Virus record (IMG/VR): IMGVR_UViG_3300031976_001312
Coordinates: 1-39,489 of that record
DNA: 39,489 nucleotides
Reading direction: 5' to 3' (one strand)
Source of the DNA: a virus
The translations under genes were made by a program, and so were the position numbers. The notes under the pieces are model-generated. The model was not told the origin of the DNA and did not search any database. It was given only the letters and a program-made list of their open reading frames with translations. Shown one piece after another: positions 25,161 through 37,249 of this stretch. Each line of letters begins with the position of its first letter. The first letter of the stretch is position 1.

Positions 25161-25538
25161 TCAGGCACGCTTATAGCGCTTGTGATTCTCTTTAAGCGTG
25201 TACTTAAGCTCATAGTGCATGCGGTGCAGGCGGTCATAGTAGGTGCTCTCAGCCATCCCCAAGCGCTCACCTTTCGCATCGTTATACCCATTCCACAGAT
25301 AGTGCTCGTGTGCCAGCACCTGGTACTCAGCGTTCAAGCAATTAACCGCTTTCTGCATTTCCCATGCCGCATCATCCATATCACCGATGCTCAGCAGATC
25401 ACGCGAGCCCTTAGGGCCACCGCTAGGCATCACACCGCCAAACTCGGCAAGGCGTCCCAGAGGAGAGCATTGACGCATTCCCCGGCCCATCAACTGATCG
25501 GCCCAATGCTGCAGCAGTTCGTCGATCTCTTTAATCAT
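25161..25538 (-). CDS. putative late-gene regulator (Q-like)
   Basis: This protein of about 125 residues has an N-terminal helical part (EIDELLQHWADQLMGRGM), a LGRLAEFGG block, and a C-terminal region that looks like a helix-turn-helix (RLGMAESTYYDRLHRMHYEL). Proteins of this kind in the same position, between replication and lysis genes, act as Q antiterminators or RinA/DUF1133-like late activators. I infer that role mainly from the HTH and location. ATG 25538 follows GGAG; a longer frame to 25562 lacks support. Confidence 0.6.
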   Translation of the reverse strand: MIKEIDELLQHWADQLMGRGMRQCSPLGRLAEFGGVMPSGGPKGSRDLLSIGDMDDAAWEMQKAVNCLNAEYQVLAHEHYLWNGYNDAKGERLGMAESTYYDRLHRMHYELKYTLKENHKRYKRA

Positions 25539-25590
25539 TGGTTTGCTCCGTGGTGGTGGCACTTCTCAACCCTAGATCAAATCACCTCAA

Positions 25591-25866
25591 CCCTAGACAT
25601 ACCCTAGACACTTAAAATCTTATTGATAACAACTATTTATTTAATACTGTCTAGGGTGTCTAGGGTGTCTAGGGTTATTCCCTTATAGGGGGGAAATTTA
25701 AAAGGTGTTGTGGATAACTGCTTATATAATCACGCACGTACACGCGCGCGGGCGCGTACAACCCTAGACACCCTAGACAGGTATGGATAACCATTTGTTT
25801 TATATTGGCTTTCATTGTCTACCCCTGGCAGTATTGACCCTAGACACACCCTAGCAACCCTAGACA
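25591..25866. repeat. CCCTAGACA iteron cluster, candidate replication origin
   Basis: Nine exact copies of CCCTAGACA occur in 276 bases. Two are forward (25591, 25602). Three in tandem are reversed (25648, 25657, 25666). Four more are forward (25762, 25771, 25838, 25858). Degenerate copies lie at 25849 and near 25566. A 37-base AT-rich stretch (25611-25647) sits between the first forward pair and the reversed triplet, as in a DNA-unwinding element between iterons. A DnaA box lies at 25709. This, together with its position beside the helicase, suggests an origin. Which protein binds the iterons is not known. Confidence 0.65.
25709..25717 (-). promoter_or_regulatory. DnaA box
   Basis: TGTGGATAA on the plus strand is a perfect consensus DnaA box (TTATCCACA) on the minus strand. 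A one-mismatch copy, TATGGATAA, lies at 25782-25790. Both are inside the iteron cluster, so host DnaA may help load the phage helicase. Confidence 0.65.
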
Positions 25867-27582
25867 CTAATCGAGCGGCGAGCCGCCATAGGGCTTGATC
25901 CACCCCTGGCACTTGTCCCACGTCGCAGGGTTCCAGCCCGCTTCTAACGCCTGGTCTCTAAACGCCTTAACCAGCGCACCCAGCTTCTTACCGTCGCCGA
26001 GGTCTACCCCATCTGGTGGGTCGGGGAGGAAGAAGATAGACCGCTTCCGATTGTTGTCCATGTCGTACCACCAATACTGCTTATCCGTTTTAGGCACCTG
26101 AGTGCTAACGAACAGCGAGAACTTAGTCTCACTCATCGTGTGCTCACGGTTCTTACTGCACCACTCCAGATAGAGATCGTGCACATCCTGCGTCCTGGCT
26201 ACCGTAAAGGGAACCCCTAATATGCCCTCCCGCCAAGCCACCAGGAAGTTCTCCCAGCTCGCACGGCTCAAGGCTACAAGCCGCTCGCGTGCCGGTGTCT
26301 TGGGTGGCCGAGTGCGTTCATCAAAGGTGCCGGTGTCATAGTTCAGCAGGTAATGATAAAACGTCTCAATGCCACCGTTCACCAGCTCCTTACCTACGGC
26401 TTGACTGGCTTCAGGGGGTAGTGTCTTTTCAGGCCAGATCACCAGCATGCGCCTATCGTGCTCACTGATCGGCCACGGCATAATCTCATTGGAGAGGAAC
26501 GCCGCGTTCATATAGTTGGCCTGTTCCCAACCGTTCATGAACTTAGCCTCCACGCGCATCGTCTTACCGGTGACCATATGCTTGATCTTGCCCACCTGGT
26601 TATAACGCTGGTCGCGGCTGACCACCTCCTCAAATACGCCATACAACTTGCTTTCCTGCCACTGGTTCCAGTTCATCTCAAGCTGCGCCTGGCCAACCGT
26701 GGCTGAGTACATGCCATAGATCGCACCCATCACATCCGAAAGCAGCAACGACTTACCCGAGCCCTCGATCGTTGAGTGGGCCAATACTGCAGTATCCAGC
26801 TTAGCGCCCAAATTCTGCAGCGGGTAAGCCAACCAGCAGGTCAGCCAATGCGTGGCCGCAGCATTGTTACTGCACAGCCACTGAATCAAATATTGAATGG
26901 ATTTACACCGCTGCGGCTCTGCGATCGGCTCTAGCGGCAAGCCCTCAAACGTATTGATGTACTCGCCCGGGCTCTGCGTCATGCGCGGGTCAAAGATCAG
27001 GCAATCATGGGGAATCTGGCGACGCTCAGGCGAGTTGATCCACAGCGACCACGCATCACCCAACGCCAACTGCACAGCACGAGCGGGCAACCGCTGCTTT
27101 AACTGCCTATCCCAGATCTCCTGGGTACCGTCTAAATACACGTAACGGTCAGTGGGTGCCATACCCAGCTTGCCCTGCCCGCCTTTCTGTTTACCTGCCA
27201 GCTTAGCTTCCGCCACCTGGTGCCTTGCCTGATCCGGGTCAATCAGCTTCTTATCGTGCCGATCTACCCACGCCTTAGCTAAAGACTTACCAACGTACGC
27301 CTCAAACGCACCCCACTTGATCAGCCGGCGTTTGACTAAATCGAAGACTTGCTTCTCACCTTCAAGCAATGCAAAGCGCCGGTGAACACTCTCATCAGTC
27401 CACTCTTGGCCCTCCCCCACGCCCCCCGTAGGTGCAGCAGCCATCGGCGGCGCCGGGGGCTGCCATTCAGAGGGGGCCGGGGGGAGTTCTTCGTCATTGG
27501 CGGCGTTAGCCAACTGCGCATTAATTTGGTCACGAACAGCCCAAAGACCACGGGCAACATGAAGATCATTCCAATCCGGCAT
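25867..27582 (-). CDS. phage SF3-type replicative helicase (D5/DUF5906-like)
   Basis: This 571-residue protein has an N-terminal linker, a central region, and an ATPase of the SF3/D5 kind. The Walker A is STIEGSGKSLLLSD (Lys277), followed by the acidic GVFEEVVSRD and the sensor-like MNAAFLSNEIMPWP. It would unwind the origin located right after its 3' end. Its first residues, MPDWNDLHVARGL, are a motif that in fused primase-helicases closes the Toprim part. The primase gene ends just upstream (TGATG overlap), so the two are coupled halves of what is often one protein. Confidence 0.88.
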   Translation of the reverse strand: MPDWNDLHVARGLWAVRDQINAQLANAANDEELPPAPSEWQPPAPPMAAAPTGGVGEGQEWTDESVHRRFALLEGEKQVFDLVKRRLIKWGAFEAYVGKSLAKAWVDRHDKKLIDPDQARHQVAEAKLAGKQKGGQGKLGMAPTDRYVYLDGTQEIWDRQLKQRLPARAVQLALGDAWSLWINSPERRQIPHDCLIFDPRMTQSPGEYINTFEGLPLEPIAEPQRCKSIQYLIQWLCSNNAAATHWLTCWLAYPLQNLGAKLDTAVLAHSTIEGSGKSLLLSDVMGAIYGMYSATVGQAQLEMNWNQWQESKLYGVFEEVVSRDQRYNQVGKIKHMVTGKTMRVEAKFMNGWEQANYMNAAFLSNEIMPWPISEHDRRMLVIWPEKTLPPEASQAVGKELVNGGIETFYHYLLNYDTGTFDERTRPPKTPARERLVALSRASWENFLVAWREGILGVPFTVARTQDVHDLYLEWCSKNREHTMSETKFSLFVSTQVPKTDKQYWWYDMDNNRKRSIFFLPDPPDGVDLGDGKKLGALVKAFRDQALEAGWNPATWDKCQGWIKPYGGSPLD

Positions 27583-28607
27583 CAGGCCACCTCGCCAAGC
27601 TCAGCGAATACCGCACGGCAGCCATACTCAAACGCCAGCGCCTCAGCCTTGGTTCTGCCAGGGTTGCCCTCAGTATCCACGTCATCATCACCGCAGATCA
27701 CCAGCTCAGCATGCGGATAAAGATCCCGCAACTGAGGCACCACCCGCGCAAGGTTACCAGCATCCAGCGCAACCGCCATCGGCCACTCCATTGCTTCATG
27801 CACGCTAGCACCTGTGGCATACCCTTCCACCACGCCGATCACGGTGGGCTGCTCTTGCCAAGCAATCCGATGCCAGCAACCACTCTTACGTCCAAACTTA
27901 GGAAAAAGCTTGGTGCCTTTTGAATTAATCACCTGCAGCGACCACAGCACACCGCCGCCATCATAAAGTGGCAAGATCGCGTCACCTTCACGCAGTCGAA
28001 ACAGATGCAAATGCTCAGGGCGCGGCTTGGGCAATTGATCAAAGAAATCTTTCACCTCACTGCCTACCCACACGCTGGCGGCTTCCACCTTCGCATCAAT
28101 GCTGACCAGCACCGCCCGCTTAACGAACAGCACGCCATGGGCACCCACGCCTTTATCGGTTAGATACGGCGCCGACCCCTCAGTGGTTAAGTGGCGTTCC
28201 ATGACCAACTGACAAGCCCGCGAAACTGCCTGCTGCATTCTCGCCAGCTTTGCCTTGTCGGCCTCAACGCTTTCCGCTGCTTTACGGCGGCGCTCTTCCT
28301 GCTCAGCCTTCAACCGCTTCCGATCGCCAGCGCTCATCTCCTTACGCTCACGCTTCCAGCCATGCTGACCCGCTAGTTTGATGATAGTGCCCAAACGCAC
28401 GTGACCAGGCTGCAAGCTTTTCCAAACACTCTGCGCATCCTTCGCATTGTAGCTATCACCACCCTGGCTCCATTCATCCCACGCAAAAAAGCCGTCATCA
28501 CCGTATTCGGTTTTGACGGCATTGCCGATGTTCACCCAGGTATCACGGTCATCGGCGGGGATATGCGTTAACGCCAGGCGCAGTTCATCAATAGAGAGTA
28601 AATCCAT
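27582..28607 (-). CDS. Toprim primase with PriCT-2 domain
   Basis: This 341-residue protein has an N-terminal PriCT-2-like domain (residues 1-85, containing AVKTEYGDDGFFAWDEWS), a charged helical linker, and a Toprim domain. Glu261 (VVEGYATG) and Asp307/Asp309 (VICGDDDV) are the likely metal ligands. It should make primers for replication. No CHC2 zinc finger is seen at the N-terminus. ATG 28607 follows GGAGGGG and overlaps the zinc-finger gene stop (ATGA). A terminator-like hairpin lies near codon 30. Confidence 0.88.
   Translation of the reverse strand: MDLLSIDELRLALTHIPADDRDTWVNIGNAVKTEYGDDGFFAWDEWSQGGDSYNAKDAQSVWKSLQPGHVRLGTIIKLAGQHGWKRERKEMSAGDRKRLKAEQEERRRKAAESVEADKAKLARMQQAVSRACQLVMERHLTTEGSAPYLTDKGVGAHGVLFVKRAVLVSIDAKVEAASVWVGSEVKDFFDQLPKPRPEHLHLFRLREGDAILPLYDGGGVLWSLQVINSKGTKLFPKFGRKSGCWHRIAWQEQPTVIGVVEGYATGASVHEAMEWPMAVALDAGNLARVVPQLRDLYPHAELVICGDDDVDTEGNPGRTKAEALAFEYGCRAVFAELGEVA
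28485..28520 (-). terminator. intragenic terminator-like hairpin in primase gene
   Basis: GCCGTCA and TGACGGC form a 7-bp stem with a 16-base loop, and six T residues follow on the minus strand (28485-28490). It encodes part of AVKTEYGDDGFF. The stem sequence is the same GCCGTCA/TGACGGC as in the protease gene. Confidence 0.4.
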
Positions 28608-28810
28608 CACCGCCCCTCCATCATCGACTGACACTGCACACAAAACTGCACTCCCGGCAGCGCATCACGCCGCGCCGCTGGGATCGGCTCATCACACTGC
28701 TTGCAAACCGCACGGCTGGAAAGCGAAGAAGGCGCGCACTGCTGGCGAGCCTTCAGCGCCTGCTCAGTACGCCACTCAATGTAATCGTTCGCGATATCGG
28801 CCTTATCCAT
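28607..28810 (-). CDS. TraR/DksA-type zinc finger protein
   Basis: This 67-residue protein has two CxxC pairs (VCKQCDEPIP and FCVQCQSMME) in the spacing of TraR/DksA zinc fingers. An acidic helical N-terminus (MDKADIANDYIEWR) comes first. Small TraR-like proteins can enter the RNA polymerase secondary channel and change promoter choice; that role here is an inference. ATG 28810 follows GGGGATG. It is coupled to the CII-like gene before it and to the primase gene after it. Confidence 0.85.
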   Translation of the reverse strand: MDKADIANDYIEWRTEQALKARQQCAPSSLSSRAVCKQCDEPIPAARRDALPGVQFCVQCQSMMEGR

Positions 28811-33876: not shown

Positions 33877-34115
33877 GCACACAGCAGCAGCCCCAGGCAG
33901 TGCCGCAATATCCTCAGTTCAAGTTCGTTGAATTCAGCAAAACACGCCAAATGCGCGGCACCGAAGCGGCCCGTATCGAAATTGTTTATGCCGAAGGCGA
34001 CCACGATGAAATCTGGATGTCGGCAGGCGACCTGCACGGCAACCTCTGTACATGGGGACAACACGAAGCGCTCACCGAAGCCCTGAAGGCTTATGGGCAA
34101 GGGGGCCGGGGATGA
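33873..34115 (+). CDS. small early protein, unknown
   Basis: This 80-residue protein is acidic, with a beta-like centre (ARIEIVYAEGDHDEIWMS) and a helical end. I do not recognise it. It is bounded by ATGA overlaps on both sides and so is translated with its neighbours. Confidence 0.6.
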   Translation: MSTQQQPQAVPQYPQFKFVEFSKTRQMRGTEAARIEIVYAEGDHDEIWMSAGDLHGNLCTWGQHEALTEALKAYGQGGRG

Positions 34116-34639
34116 ACACACCAGCAATTGCACCTCGCGTGCTAGACCCAGCTTGCGGCAGCCGCATGATGTGGTTTGACCGTGGCCACCCTGATGCAGT
34201 TTTCGGTGATGTACGTAGCGAAACACTCTCCATAACTGACAGGAGCCACGGCCGCATCGACGGGACAAGGACGCTAACTGTTTGCCCAGATATGCAGATG
34301 GATTTTCGCGCCCTGCCGTTTAGTGATGACACCTTCCGCCTGGTCGCGTTTGACCCGCCTCACCTGGTGCGCGCTGGCCCGCGCTCCTGGCTAGCAGCCA
34401 AGTACGGAAAGCTCAGCAAGGATTGGCGCGACGATCTCCGCCAAGGCTTTGCTGAATGCTTCCGCGTACTGCACCCCGATGGCGTGCTGGTGTTTAAGTG
34501 GAATGAAACACAGGTGAAGCTGAGCGAAGTGCTGGCACTGACTCCACACCAACCTCTGTTTGGTAACACCAGCGGAAGGAAAGCGGGTACGCACTGGCTA
34601 GTGTTCATGAAGCCAAGCACTCAGGAGCTGACACCATGA
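34112..34639 (+). CDS. SAM-dependent methyltransferase
   Basis: This protein of about 175 residues has the Rossmann motif RVLDPACGSRMMWFD, then a motif of the GDVR type, MDFRALPFSDDTFRLVAFDPPH and RVLHPDGVLVFKWNE. The DPPH sequence resembles the DPPY/DPPW motif of DNA amino-methyltransferases, so DNA adenine or N4-cytosine methylation is possible, but the fold alone does not settle this. ATG 34112 overlaps the preceding stop; a longer frame to 34052 would sit inside the previous gene. Confidence 0.75.
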   Translation: MNTPAIAPRVLDPACGSRMMWFDRGHPDAVFGDVRSETLSITDRSHGRIDGTRTLTVCPDMQMDFRALPFSDDTFRLVAFDPPHLVRAGPRSWLAAKYGKLSKDWRDDLRQGFAECFRVLHPDGVLVFKWNETQVKLSEVLALTPHQPLFGNTSGRKAGTHWLVFMKPSTQELTP

Positions 34640-35331: not shown

Positions 35332-35531
35332 TTCTCAAAACGATAGCCATCTGCATTGTTGGCGGCGCCTTGATCTCATCGTTGTTCGTTGACGAACGTA
35401 GTCCAATCTTAAGCGATCGGCTGATTACCGCGGGGCTCGGAGCTTTCATCGGCTTGATCATCGCTGTCATTATCTTGGGCGGCTGGCACCTTGCGGCCCT
35501 GGTGTTCGCCATGATGGAGGGCACCAAATGA
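35319..35531 (+). CDS. small two-TM membrane protein
   Basis: This 70-residue protein has hydrophobic segments at residues 4-23 and 40-64 with charged DERSP between. GGAGG precedes its ATG, inside the end of the upstream gene. I cannot assign a function. Superinfection exclusion is a common role for such small phage membrane proteins, but nothing in the sequence proves it. ATGA overlap joins it to the methyltransferase gene. Confidence 0.6.
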   Translation: MDFLILKTIAICIVGGALISSLFVDERSPILSDRLITAGLGAFIGLIIAVIILGGWHLAALVFAMMEGTK

Positions 35532-37249
35532 AACGACAACCTCCCCACTGGCGCACTCAATACGCCCTCGACTACGAAGGTGAAATCAACGTCGATCTAT
35601 TCGCCGGCGGCGGCGGTGCCAGCACCGGGTTAGAGATGGGCCTAAAGCGCCCCGTGCACGTCGCCATCAACCACGATCCCGACGCGATCAGCATGCACAC
35701 CGCCAACCACCCCGGATGCGAACACTACCAAAGCGATGTCTACGAAGTAGATCCAATTGCCGCCACCCGCGGCCGCCCGGTGGGCTGGCTACACGCTAGC
35801 CCCGACTGCACCCATCACAGCCAAGCCCGGGGCGGCCAGCCCCGCAAACGCGCTATCAGATCATTGAGCTGGGTAGTCCACAAATGGGCAGGCCTGGTGC
35901 GCCCCCGCGTGATCTCACTGGAGAACGTCGAGCAAATACTGCAGTGGGGCCCACTCGTCGCCAAGCGCTGCAAAGAAACCGGCCGTGTTAATAAAATCGA
36001 CGGCACCGTAGCCGTTCCAGGCGAACAAACGCCGATCAATGAACAGTTCCTGGTACCGGATAAGAAACGCCGCAGCCAAAACTGGCGGCACTTCATCGGT
36101 GGCTTACGGGCGCTAGGTTATGAAGTGGAGTGGCGCACACTCCCCGCATGTGACTTTGGCGCCCCCACAACACGCAAACGTTTATATCTGATCGCCCGCC
36201 GCGATGGTCAGCCCATCGTCTGGCCTACACCTACTCACGCCCGCAAACCCGCCAGGGGCCAAAAGCGCTTCGCATCGGCGGCATCCTGCATTGATTGGTC
36301 GGATCTCGGTAAGAGCATTTTCAACCGCCCCCGCCCACTCGCAGACAACACAATGAAGCGAATCGCCAAAGGCATTGATAAGTTCGTGATCAATGCGGCT
36401 CAACCCTTCATTGTGCCCATCGCCAACTACGGTACCGGCGAAGTCGTTCAGCCCATCAGCGAGCCACTACGCACTATCACCGCATGGCCGAAAGGCGGCA
36501 GCTTCGCTGTGGCTTCACCCTGCTTGGTTCAGCTAGCCCACGGCCAGGGTAAGCCCGGGGGCGTCCAACGCTGGGGAATCGGCAGCCGCGACATTGAAGA
36601 ACCACTGAACACCATCACGGCCAGCAGTGGAATGGCGGTGGCCACCGCCTACATGGCGCAGATGAACGGCGGGTTCTACGAAGGTGCAGGCCGCGCCGCC
36701 GATGACCCGCTTAGCACGATCACCGGCCGCGGTACCCAGCAGCAGATCGTCACCGCTCACCTAATGGTACAGCGACGCAATCAGAACGGTGCCGACGTGA
36801 CCGCGCCGCTGCACACTATCACCGCAGGGGCCAATCACCACGGCCTGGTGCACTGCACGCTCTCCCAGCAGGTAGAAGAAAGCGCCCTGCAGGTCGCCGC
36901 GTTCCTGATGCGCTACCACAGCACCGGCGGGCAATGGGCAGACCTGCACGAACCGATGACGACGGTGACCACGAAAGACCGGCTTGCCCTGGTGACCGTC
37001 TACATCAAAGGCACGCCCTACGTCATCGTGGATATCTGCCTGCGCATGCTCAAACCCCGTGAGCTCTACCGCGCCCAGGGCTTTCCAGATTCCTACATCA
37101 TCGATCGCGGGCACGATGGCAAACCGTTCACGATCACCGCGCAAACCCGCATGTGCGGCAACAGCGTCAGCCCATTACCTATGGCCGCACTCGCCGCCGC
37201 TAATGATCATCAGGTAGTAGAGCTCAATCACATGGAGGGCGTGGCATGA
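35528..37249 (+). CDS. DNA cytosine-C5 methyltransferase (Dcm-like)
   Basis: This 573-residue protein has motif I DLFAGGGGASTGLEMG, the catalytic SPDCTHHSQARG loop (Cys94), ENVEQ (Glu132) and APTTRKRLYLIARR. It ends with motif X, CGNSVSP. Between motifs VIII and X, residues about 310-500 hold five spaced repeats of the form xPLxTIT, in the place where target-recognition domains sit. It probably methylates phage DNA against host restriction. It is larger than a plain Dcm because of this repeat region. Confidence 0.92.
   Translation: MKRQPPHWRTQYALDYEGEINVDLFAGGGGASTGLEMGLKRPVHVAINHDPDAISMHTANHPGCEHYQSDVYEVDPIAATRGRPVGWLHASPDCTHHSQARGGQPRKRAIRSLSWVVHKWAGLVRPRVISLENVEQILQWGPLVAKRCKETGRVNKIDGTVAVPGEQTPINEQFLVPDKKRRSQNWRHFIGGLRALGYEVEWRTLPACDFGAPTTRKRLYLIARRDGQPIVWPTPTHARKPARGQKRFASAASCIDWSDLGKSIFNRPRPLADNTMKRIAKGIDKFVINAAQPFIVPIANYGTGEVVQPISEPLRTITAWPKGGSFAVASPCLVQLAHGQGKPGGVQRWGIGSRDIEEPLNTITASSGMAVATAYMAQMNGGFYEGAGRAADDPLSTITGRGTQQQIVTAHLMVQRRNQNGADVTAPLHTITAGANHHGLVHCTLSQQVEESALQVAAFLMRYHSTGGQWADLHEPMTTVTTKDRLALVTVYIKGTPYVIVDICLRMLKPRELYRAQGFPDSYIIDRGHDGKPFTITAQTRMCGNSVSPLPMAALAAANDHQVVELNHMEGVA

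Follow-up and report, generated by a model that had tools for sequence, protein, structure and literature searches.

What does a dense array of one short word, repeated in both orientations, do immediately behind the helicase gene of a phage, and which protein reads it? The window, by which we mean the whole stretch of DNA analysed (39,489 nt; IMG/VR record IMGVR_UViG_3300031976_001312, positions 1 to 39,489), carries the gene set of a temperate phage (terminase subunits, capsid, tail tip protein, endolysin, spanin, CI/Cro/CII and integrase). A halomonad host is likely because the relatives are prophages of Onishia taeanensis and Halomonas cerina and the Halomonas phage vB_HmeY_H4907 (OQ832096; L036; H4907 below), and we took the window to represent a temperate tailed phage whose host likely lies among the Halomonadaceae. 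Based on the comparison of related loci, we consider it highly likely that the segment in question is the replication origin of this Halomonadaceae temperate tailed phage, with the neighbouring helicase as its own initiator. The repeated words would very probably be the landing sites where the phage's helicase starts DNA copying. The elements of the locus are listed below in window coordinates.

25161..25562, minus strand: next gene, phrog_4300 (PHROG match)
25570..25610, plus strand: iteron group D, exact copies at 25591 and 25602 and degenerate CCCTAGATC at 25570
25591 and 25602, plus strand: exact copies of CCCTAGACA (exact-word count)
25611..25647, no strand: AT-rich gap, 37 bp, 84% AT, proposed melting element
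25648..25674, minus strand: iteron group C, three copies head-to-tail, facing group B
25648, 25657 and 25666, minus strand: exact copies of CCCTAGACA (exact-word count)
25675..25761, no strand: core between the two facing arrays (groups B and C), 87 bp
25709..25717, minus strand: exact DnaA box TTATCCACA, in the core
25732..25759, no strand: alternating purine/pyrimidine (Z-DNA-like) tract, CACGCACGTACACGCGCGCGGGCGCGTA (read from the sequence)
25762..25779, plus strand: iteron group B, two copies head-to-tail
25762, 25771, 25838 and 25858, plus strand: exact copies of CCCTAGACA (exact-word count)
25816..25824, minus strand: lone degenerate iteron GGGTAGACA, three mismatches, opposite orientation (read from the sequence)
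25838..25866, plus strand: iteron group A, CCCTAGACA at 25838 and 25858 and degenerate CCCTAGCAA at 25849
25867..27582, minus strand: D5/SF3-type helicase gene, 571 aa (DUF5906 ATPase and C-terminal Pox_D5-like winged helix), proposed initiator
26037..26259, minus strand: predicted winged-helix domain, residues about 442-516, recognition helix 485-493 with Glu485 (AF2 model)
27582..28643, minus strand: primase gene, 353 aa (PriCT_2 and Toprim; Pfam)

An ordered iteron array fills the gap behind the helicase gene

The array segment fills the intergenic gap between the helicase gene and the phrog_4300 gene; in H4907, the homologue of the latter carries the annotation antitermination protein. Nine exact copies of CCCTAGACA were found in both orientations between 25591 and 25866, compared to 0.18 copies expected in the whole window; none of 100 shuffles reached nine, and a chance cluster was therefore rejected. 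No further exact copies were found in the rest of the 39,489-base record. Including degenerate copies (two mismatches at 25570-25578 and 25849-25857; three mismatches, in the opposite orientation, in the slot of GGGTAGACA, where relatives have a better copy), the window holds approximately 12 sites in four groups (A-D), whose orientations read ---+--+++--- from the helicase stop codon onward. The last copy of CCCTAGACA abuts this stop codon, and groups C and D flank the gap at 25611-25647, which is 84% AT compared to 44% for the whole window. These results bear out the original prediction: the nine exact 9-base words run in both directions, exceed chance expectation by a wide margin, adjoin the 3′ end of the helicase gene and flank an AT-rich patch.

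A consensus DnaA box had also been predicted. One exact TTATCCACA is indeed present at 25709-25717, at a position conserved inside the window's own clade, but it is not a family feature, as TTWTNCACA was present in only 8 of 127 family origins. Allowing one mismatch, DnaA-like sites showed no excess over chance (5 seen versus 5.1 expected). Limited as it is to the window's clade, the box can have no more than an accessory role.

The array accompanies the helicase gene

A search of IMG/VR (2.9 million viral contigs) for the tandem word CCCTAGACACCCTAGACA, run without reference to the helicase, gave 16 hits. All 16 were located at the 3′ end of a helicase homologue (56-100% identity), one of them (the contig of L012/L022) being identical to the window across the shared genes and hence not independent. 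The same tandem word was found in 4 of 275 genomes of the host family, always at prophage helicase loci and with the helicase adjacent in all four, and a host-wide repeat was rejected on these grounds. The cluster was thus present beside the helicase in relatives, as anticipated, and in the host genomes it was absent outside prophage helicase loci. Among named phages, a DNA search with the 401-base array segment gave no match.

Named phages with helicases 30-62% identical to that of the window lacked CCCTAGACA and instead carried a different word in the same arrangement. The array word is CCCTAACCA in KT1, CCCAACACA in PG1, pAN, Turba, LPPA56, Lodos and Meadow, CCCTGCACA in Moraxella Mcat4, CCCGCACA in Stenotrophomonas S1 and TCAGACAGA in H4907. 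From loci of named phages, whole genomes and IMG/VR we assembled 127 non-redundant related helicases, a set in which some word calls were automatic. A significant word array was found within 420 bases past the stop codon for 111 of the 127 helicases, compared to 0 of 127 for an in-gene control stretch; the 16 helicases without a significant array were mostly the most distant ones or had degenerate words. Dozens of different words were seen across the arrays, and 37 different CCC-initial words occurred among the 91 loci alignable on that frame alone.

The layout varied far less than the word. Counting sites with at most one mismatch, loci had up to 12 sites (exactly 12 in 25 loci, 13 in a single one), and same-strand steps were most commonly 9 bp (266 steps), followed by 11 and 12 bp. 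In 104 of 117 loci, a core with a median length of 90 bp (IQR 82-95) separated two facing arrays. Near one end of the core, the alternating purine/pyrimidine run had a family mean of 17.0 versus 8.5 in shuffled sequence (the strict run at the window locus is 20 bases), and past the array at the other end lay the gap, with a median of 36 bp and a mean of 68% AT. Of 104 loci, 58 had the word AYGCG within the final 45 bp of the core, versus 5 expected. The alternating tract holds a conserved place in most origin cores, independent of the word. AYGCG is often seen as a T-rich stretch followed by CTCACGCGAGG, and is replaced in the window's clade. The family-wide element suspected from the degenerate copies was thus recovered in a stronger form: judged from these alignments, the layout is stable across related phages while the word changes together with the helicase.

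Helicase and array were exchanged as one block

The comparison with H4907 localized this change. The two phages align over the CI, Cro, CII and primase genes (window 30573 to 27545; 70% DNA identity) and again from 25538 to 22521 (81% DNA identity), whereas between the helicase start codon and the start of the next gene a 36-base piece alone aligns. The helicases share 30% protein identity and the arrays are wholly different, while the primases, which lie inside the 70% DNA match, are 60% identical in amino acids. This pattern indicates that helicase and array were exchanged as one block between the window and H4907 and that the primase was retained. Because the flanks were kept, the word appears to belong to the helicase rather than to the primase, repressor, Cro, CII or Q-like gene. 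Further locus pairs with related downstream genes, unlike helicases and unlike words (L315/L356, L217/L326, L084/L270 and L125/L227) suggest repeated cassette exchange. Taken together, the compared loci show the array to be a real element tied to the helicase gene, with a layout that is retained and a word that shifts along with the helicase.

The primase stop codon and the helicase start codon share a single base (window 27582). In several relatives primase and helicase form one fused gene (e.g. L011, with a fused frame of 920 aa, and L028), so that splitting or fusion may have happened more than once.

The helicase has a predicted C-terminal winged helix

The helicase matched PF19263 (E = 2.8e-17) and PHROG 2249 (E = 2.3e-81). 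Its closest solved relative by sequence is the NrS-1 phage polymerase (E = 1.5e-22), and fold matches included the NrS-1 CTR (6k9c, E = 2e-18), with the SaPI5 primase-helicase (7ola/7om0) among the top matches. In the AF2 model, residues 442-516 form an H-H-H-beta-hairpin with a pLDDT of about 92-95; a model of the C-terminal domain alone was of low confidence (47.5) and was left out of the analysis. Pox_D5 matched 13 of 14 family members (best E 3.5e-5), the match for the window's helicase being under the curated cut-off. According to these models, the protein is a Rep/D5-class helicase with a predicted C-terminal DNA-binding domain.

Glu485, the first residue of the predicted recognition helix (third helix of the winged helix), was present in 9 of 9 helicases with CCCTAGACA and in 0 of 30 others, which have Gln/His, Ala, Asp or Gly at this position. 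On an ATPase-only tree CCCTAGACA needs only three independent changes, over which Glu485 co-varies with it (sign test p = 0.25). An unsupervised scan along the helicase placed the two highest word associations at residues 481-493, and these were modest after correction for ATPase distance (partial r 0.25-0.26).

A helicase-loading origin and its alternatives

The best reading of the locus, by analogy, is a SaPI/PICI-like origin on which the C-terminal domain of the helicase would load rings on the iterons. The winged helix would bind the 9-bp iterons, and the opposed groups (up to 12 sites in the family) would set two helicase rings face to face, two hexamers being suggested because the 12-site ceiling and the facing arrays suit them. 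The 84% AT gap would then melt, the rings would be loaded and the partner primase would start synthesis, with replication probably bidirectional.

An alternative explanation is that the words are primase recognition (priming) sites of the NrS-1 or pRN1 type and not helicase landing sites. Primase and helicase are neighbouring or fused, the NrS-1 polymerase recognises an 8-nt motif (PMC8718748), and one primase column among 331 also separated the word groups perfectly (26 sequences, a smaller set). We nevertheless regard this as very unlikely, given that the word does not track the primase: H4907 keeps the primase while helicase and word have been exchanged. Moreover, the pairing of inverted arrays at a fixed distance is suited to the binding of double-stranded DNA, and the NrS-1 motif occurs in two copies only (PMC7102993). 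The words might also be operators through which a phage regulator (CI, Cro, CII or the Q-like protein encoded downstream) governs late genes, as the array is located just upstream of the putative antitermination gene and of lysis genes. This is extremely unlikely, because CI, Cro, CII and the phrog_4300 product are 63-78% identical in H4907 despite an entirely different word, the same word persists beside unlike downstream genes (L005, L007, L009 and L011), arrays are present without a phrog_4300 gene (L035 and L037), and a twelve-site inverted layout would be unusual for operators. The retention of these genes and of the primase in H4907 thus disfavours all of their products as the binder.

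Equally hard to credit is an origin opened by DnaA, with the iterons in an accessory role; the exact box in the core and its conserved position in the window's own clade would fit, but the rarity of the box elsewhere (8 of 127) led us to reject a DnaA-driven origin as a family rule. Finally, the array might serve in incompatibility, copy control or partition, bound by the helicase or by some other protein, and the true origin might lie at a different place, given that the iterons of plasmids and P4 act in copy control too. We consider this highly unlikely: the phage carries an integrase, no ParA/ParB-type match was found among the scanned window proteins, the paired arrays together with the AT-rich gap are in keeping with an origin, and the PICI counterparts at the same place are origins (PMC6092414).

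Relation to known replication systems

The helicase-loading origin favoured here has close precedents. PICI origins lie immediately 3′ of rep and contain AT-rich DNA with one set of iterons on either side, and rep and ori together drive plasmid replication (PMC6092414); the C-terminal domain of the SaPI Rep and of Cch2 binds iterons just downstream of its own gene, and the SaPI Rep apparently acts as two hexamers (PMC7581432). The window's locus resembles these systems (SaPIbov1, SaPI5 PriRep1 and EcCICFT073, also SCCmec Cch2) in the place of the proposed origin immediately 3′ of the putative initiator helicase gene, the two sets of short iterons around an AT-rich stretch (here groups C and D), the SF3/D5-type or related helicase with iteron binding by the C-terminal domain (here predicted) and the adjacent or fused primase. 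It differs in sitting in full-length tailed temperate phages, in a Toprim-type rather than AEP primase partner, in 9-bp iterons arranged in four groups with up to 12 sites, in a core that carries an AYGCG element and an alternating purine/pyrimidine tract, and in a very large word diversity on a constant layout. A SaPI/PICI satellite has an incomplete set of structural genes and parasitises a helper phage, while the window encodes terminase subunits, a capsid and a tail tip protein as well as lysis genes.

The P4 alpha protein is an initiator of the primase-helicase type whose C-terminal winged helix binds the origin, and its iterons lie in two places. P4 separates ori and crr, however, and its iterons differ from those here; a sequence search did not reach the P4 alpha C-domain structure. 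NrS-1, the closest solved relative in both sequence and fold, has an AEP-type primase-polymerase and two copies of its 8-nt recognition site with no iteron array (PMC7102993). For pRN1 and Bordetella phage BIP-1, an origin was proposed just 3′ of a primase-SF3 helicase-winged helix gene, similar to the arrangement here, but that study favours a large stem-loop and, for BIP-1, dismisses iterons (PMC4234260), whereas iterons dominate in the window's family. There, the final 42 bp of the core, the only stretch covered, held short hairpins that on average did not exceed chance (mean stem 3.9 versus 3.6 bp in shuffles). A conserved hairpin before group C, suspected by eye, was unsupported by this stem test, and only the AYGCG word was enriched.

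The suggestion that the element may be undescribed stands in part. An iteron origin 3′ of a self-loading helicase gene is known from SaPIs and PICIs (PMC6092414, PMC7581432), while the variant seen here (tailed temperate phages, Toprim primase, four-group 9-bp scaffold, alternating tract, rapid word turnover and cassette exchange) was not found described in the open-licence literature, which is weak evidence of novelty; the exact CCCTAGACA word gave chance strings only. We tentatively propose, as a possibility somewhat short of an even chance, a family-wide phage origin class, apparently undescribed as such, in which up to 12 sites form a fixed platform for a D5-type helicase double ring, the conserved alternating (possibly Z-DNA) tract and AYGCG are working parts, and the 9-bp word turns over rapidly via matched recognition-helix changes and helicase-origin cassette exchange. 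Many natural pairs of initiator helicase and word on one constant scaffold make initiator-origin specificity directly testable, as are satellites or incompatibility between co-resident prophages as causes of the rapid turnover. The arrays would also make origin annotation possible in many temperate phages without a recorded origin, and raise the question of the role of a conserved alternating purine/pyrimidine tract in a bacterial virus origin.

Nucleotide skew and further observations

GC skew was uninformative, showing no turn at the array, and a change in AT skew coincided with the change in gene direction. In H4907, the origin was placed by GC skew at the ends of the record (PMC10580944), away from the iteron array beside the helicase. 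The right arm of the prophage carries two DNA methyltransferase genes of different families (window 34052-34639 and 35528-37249).
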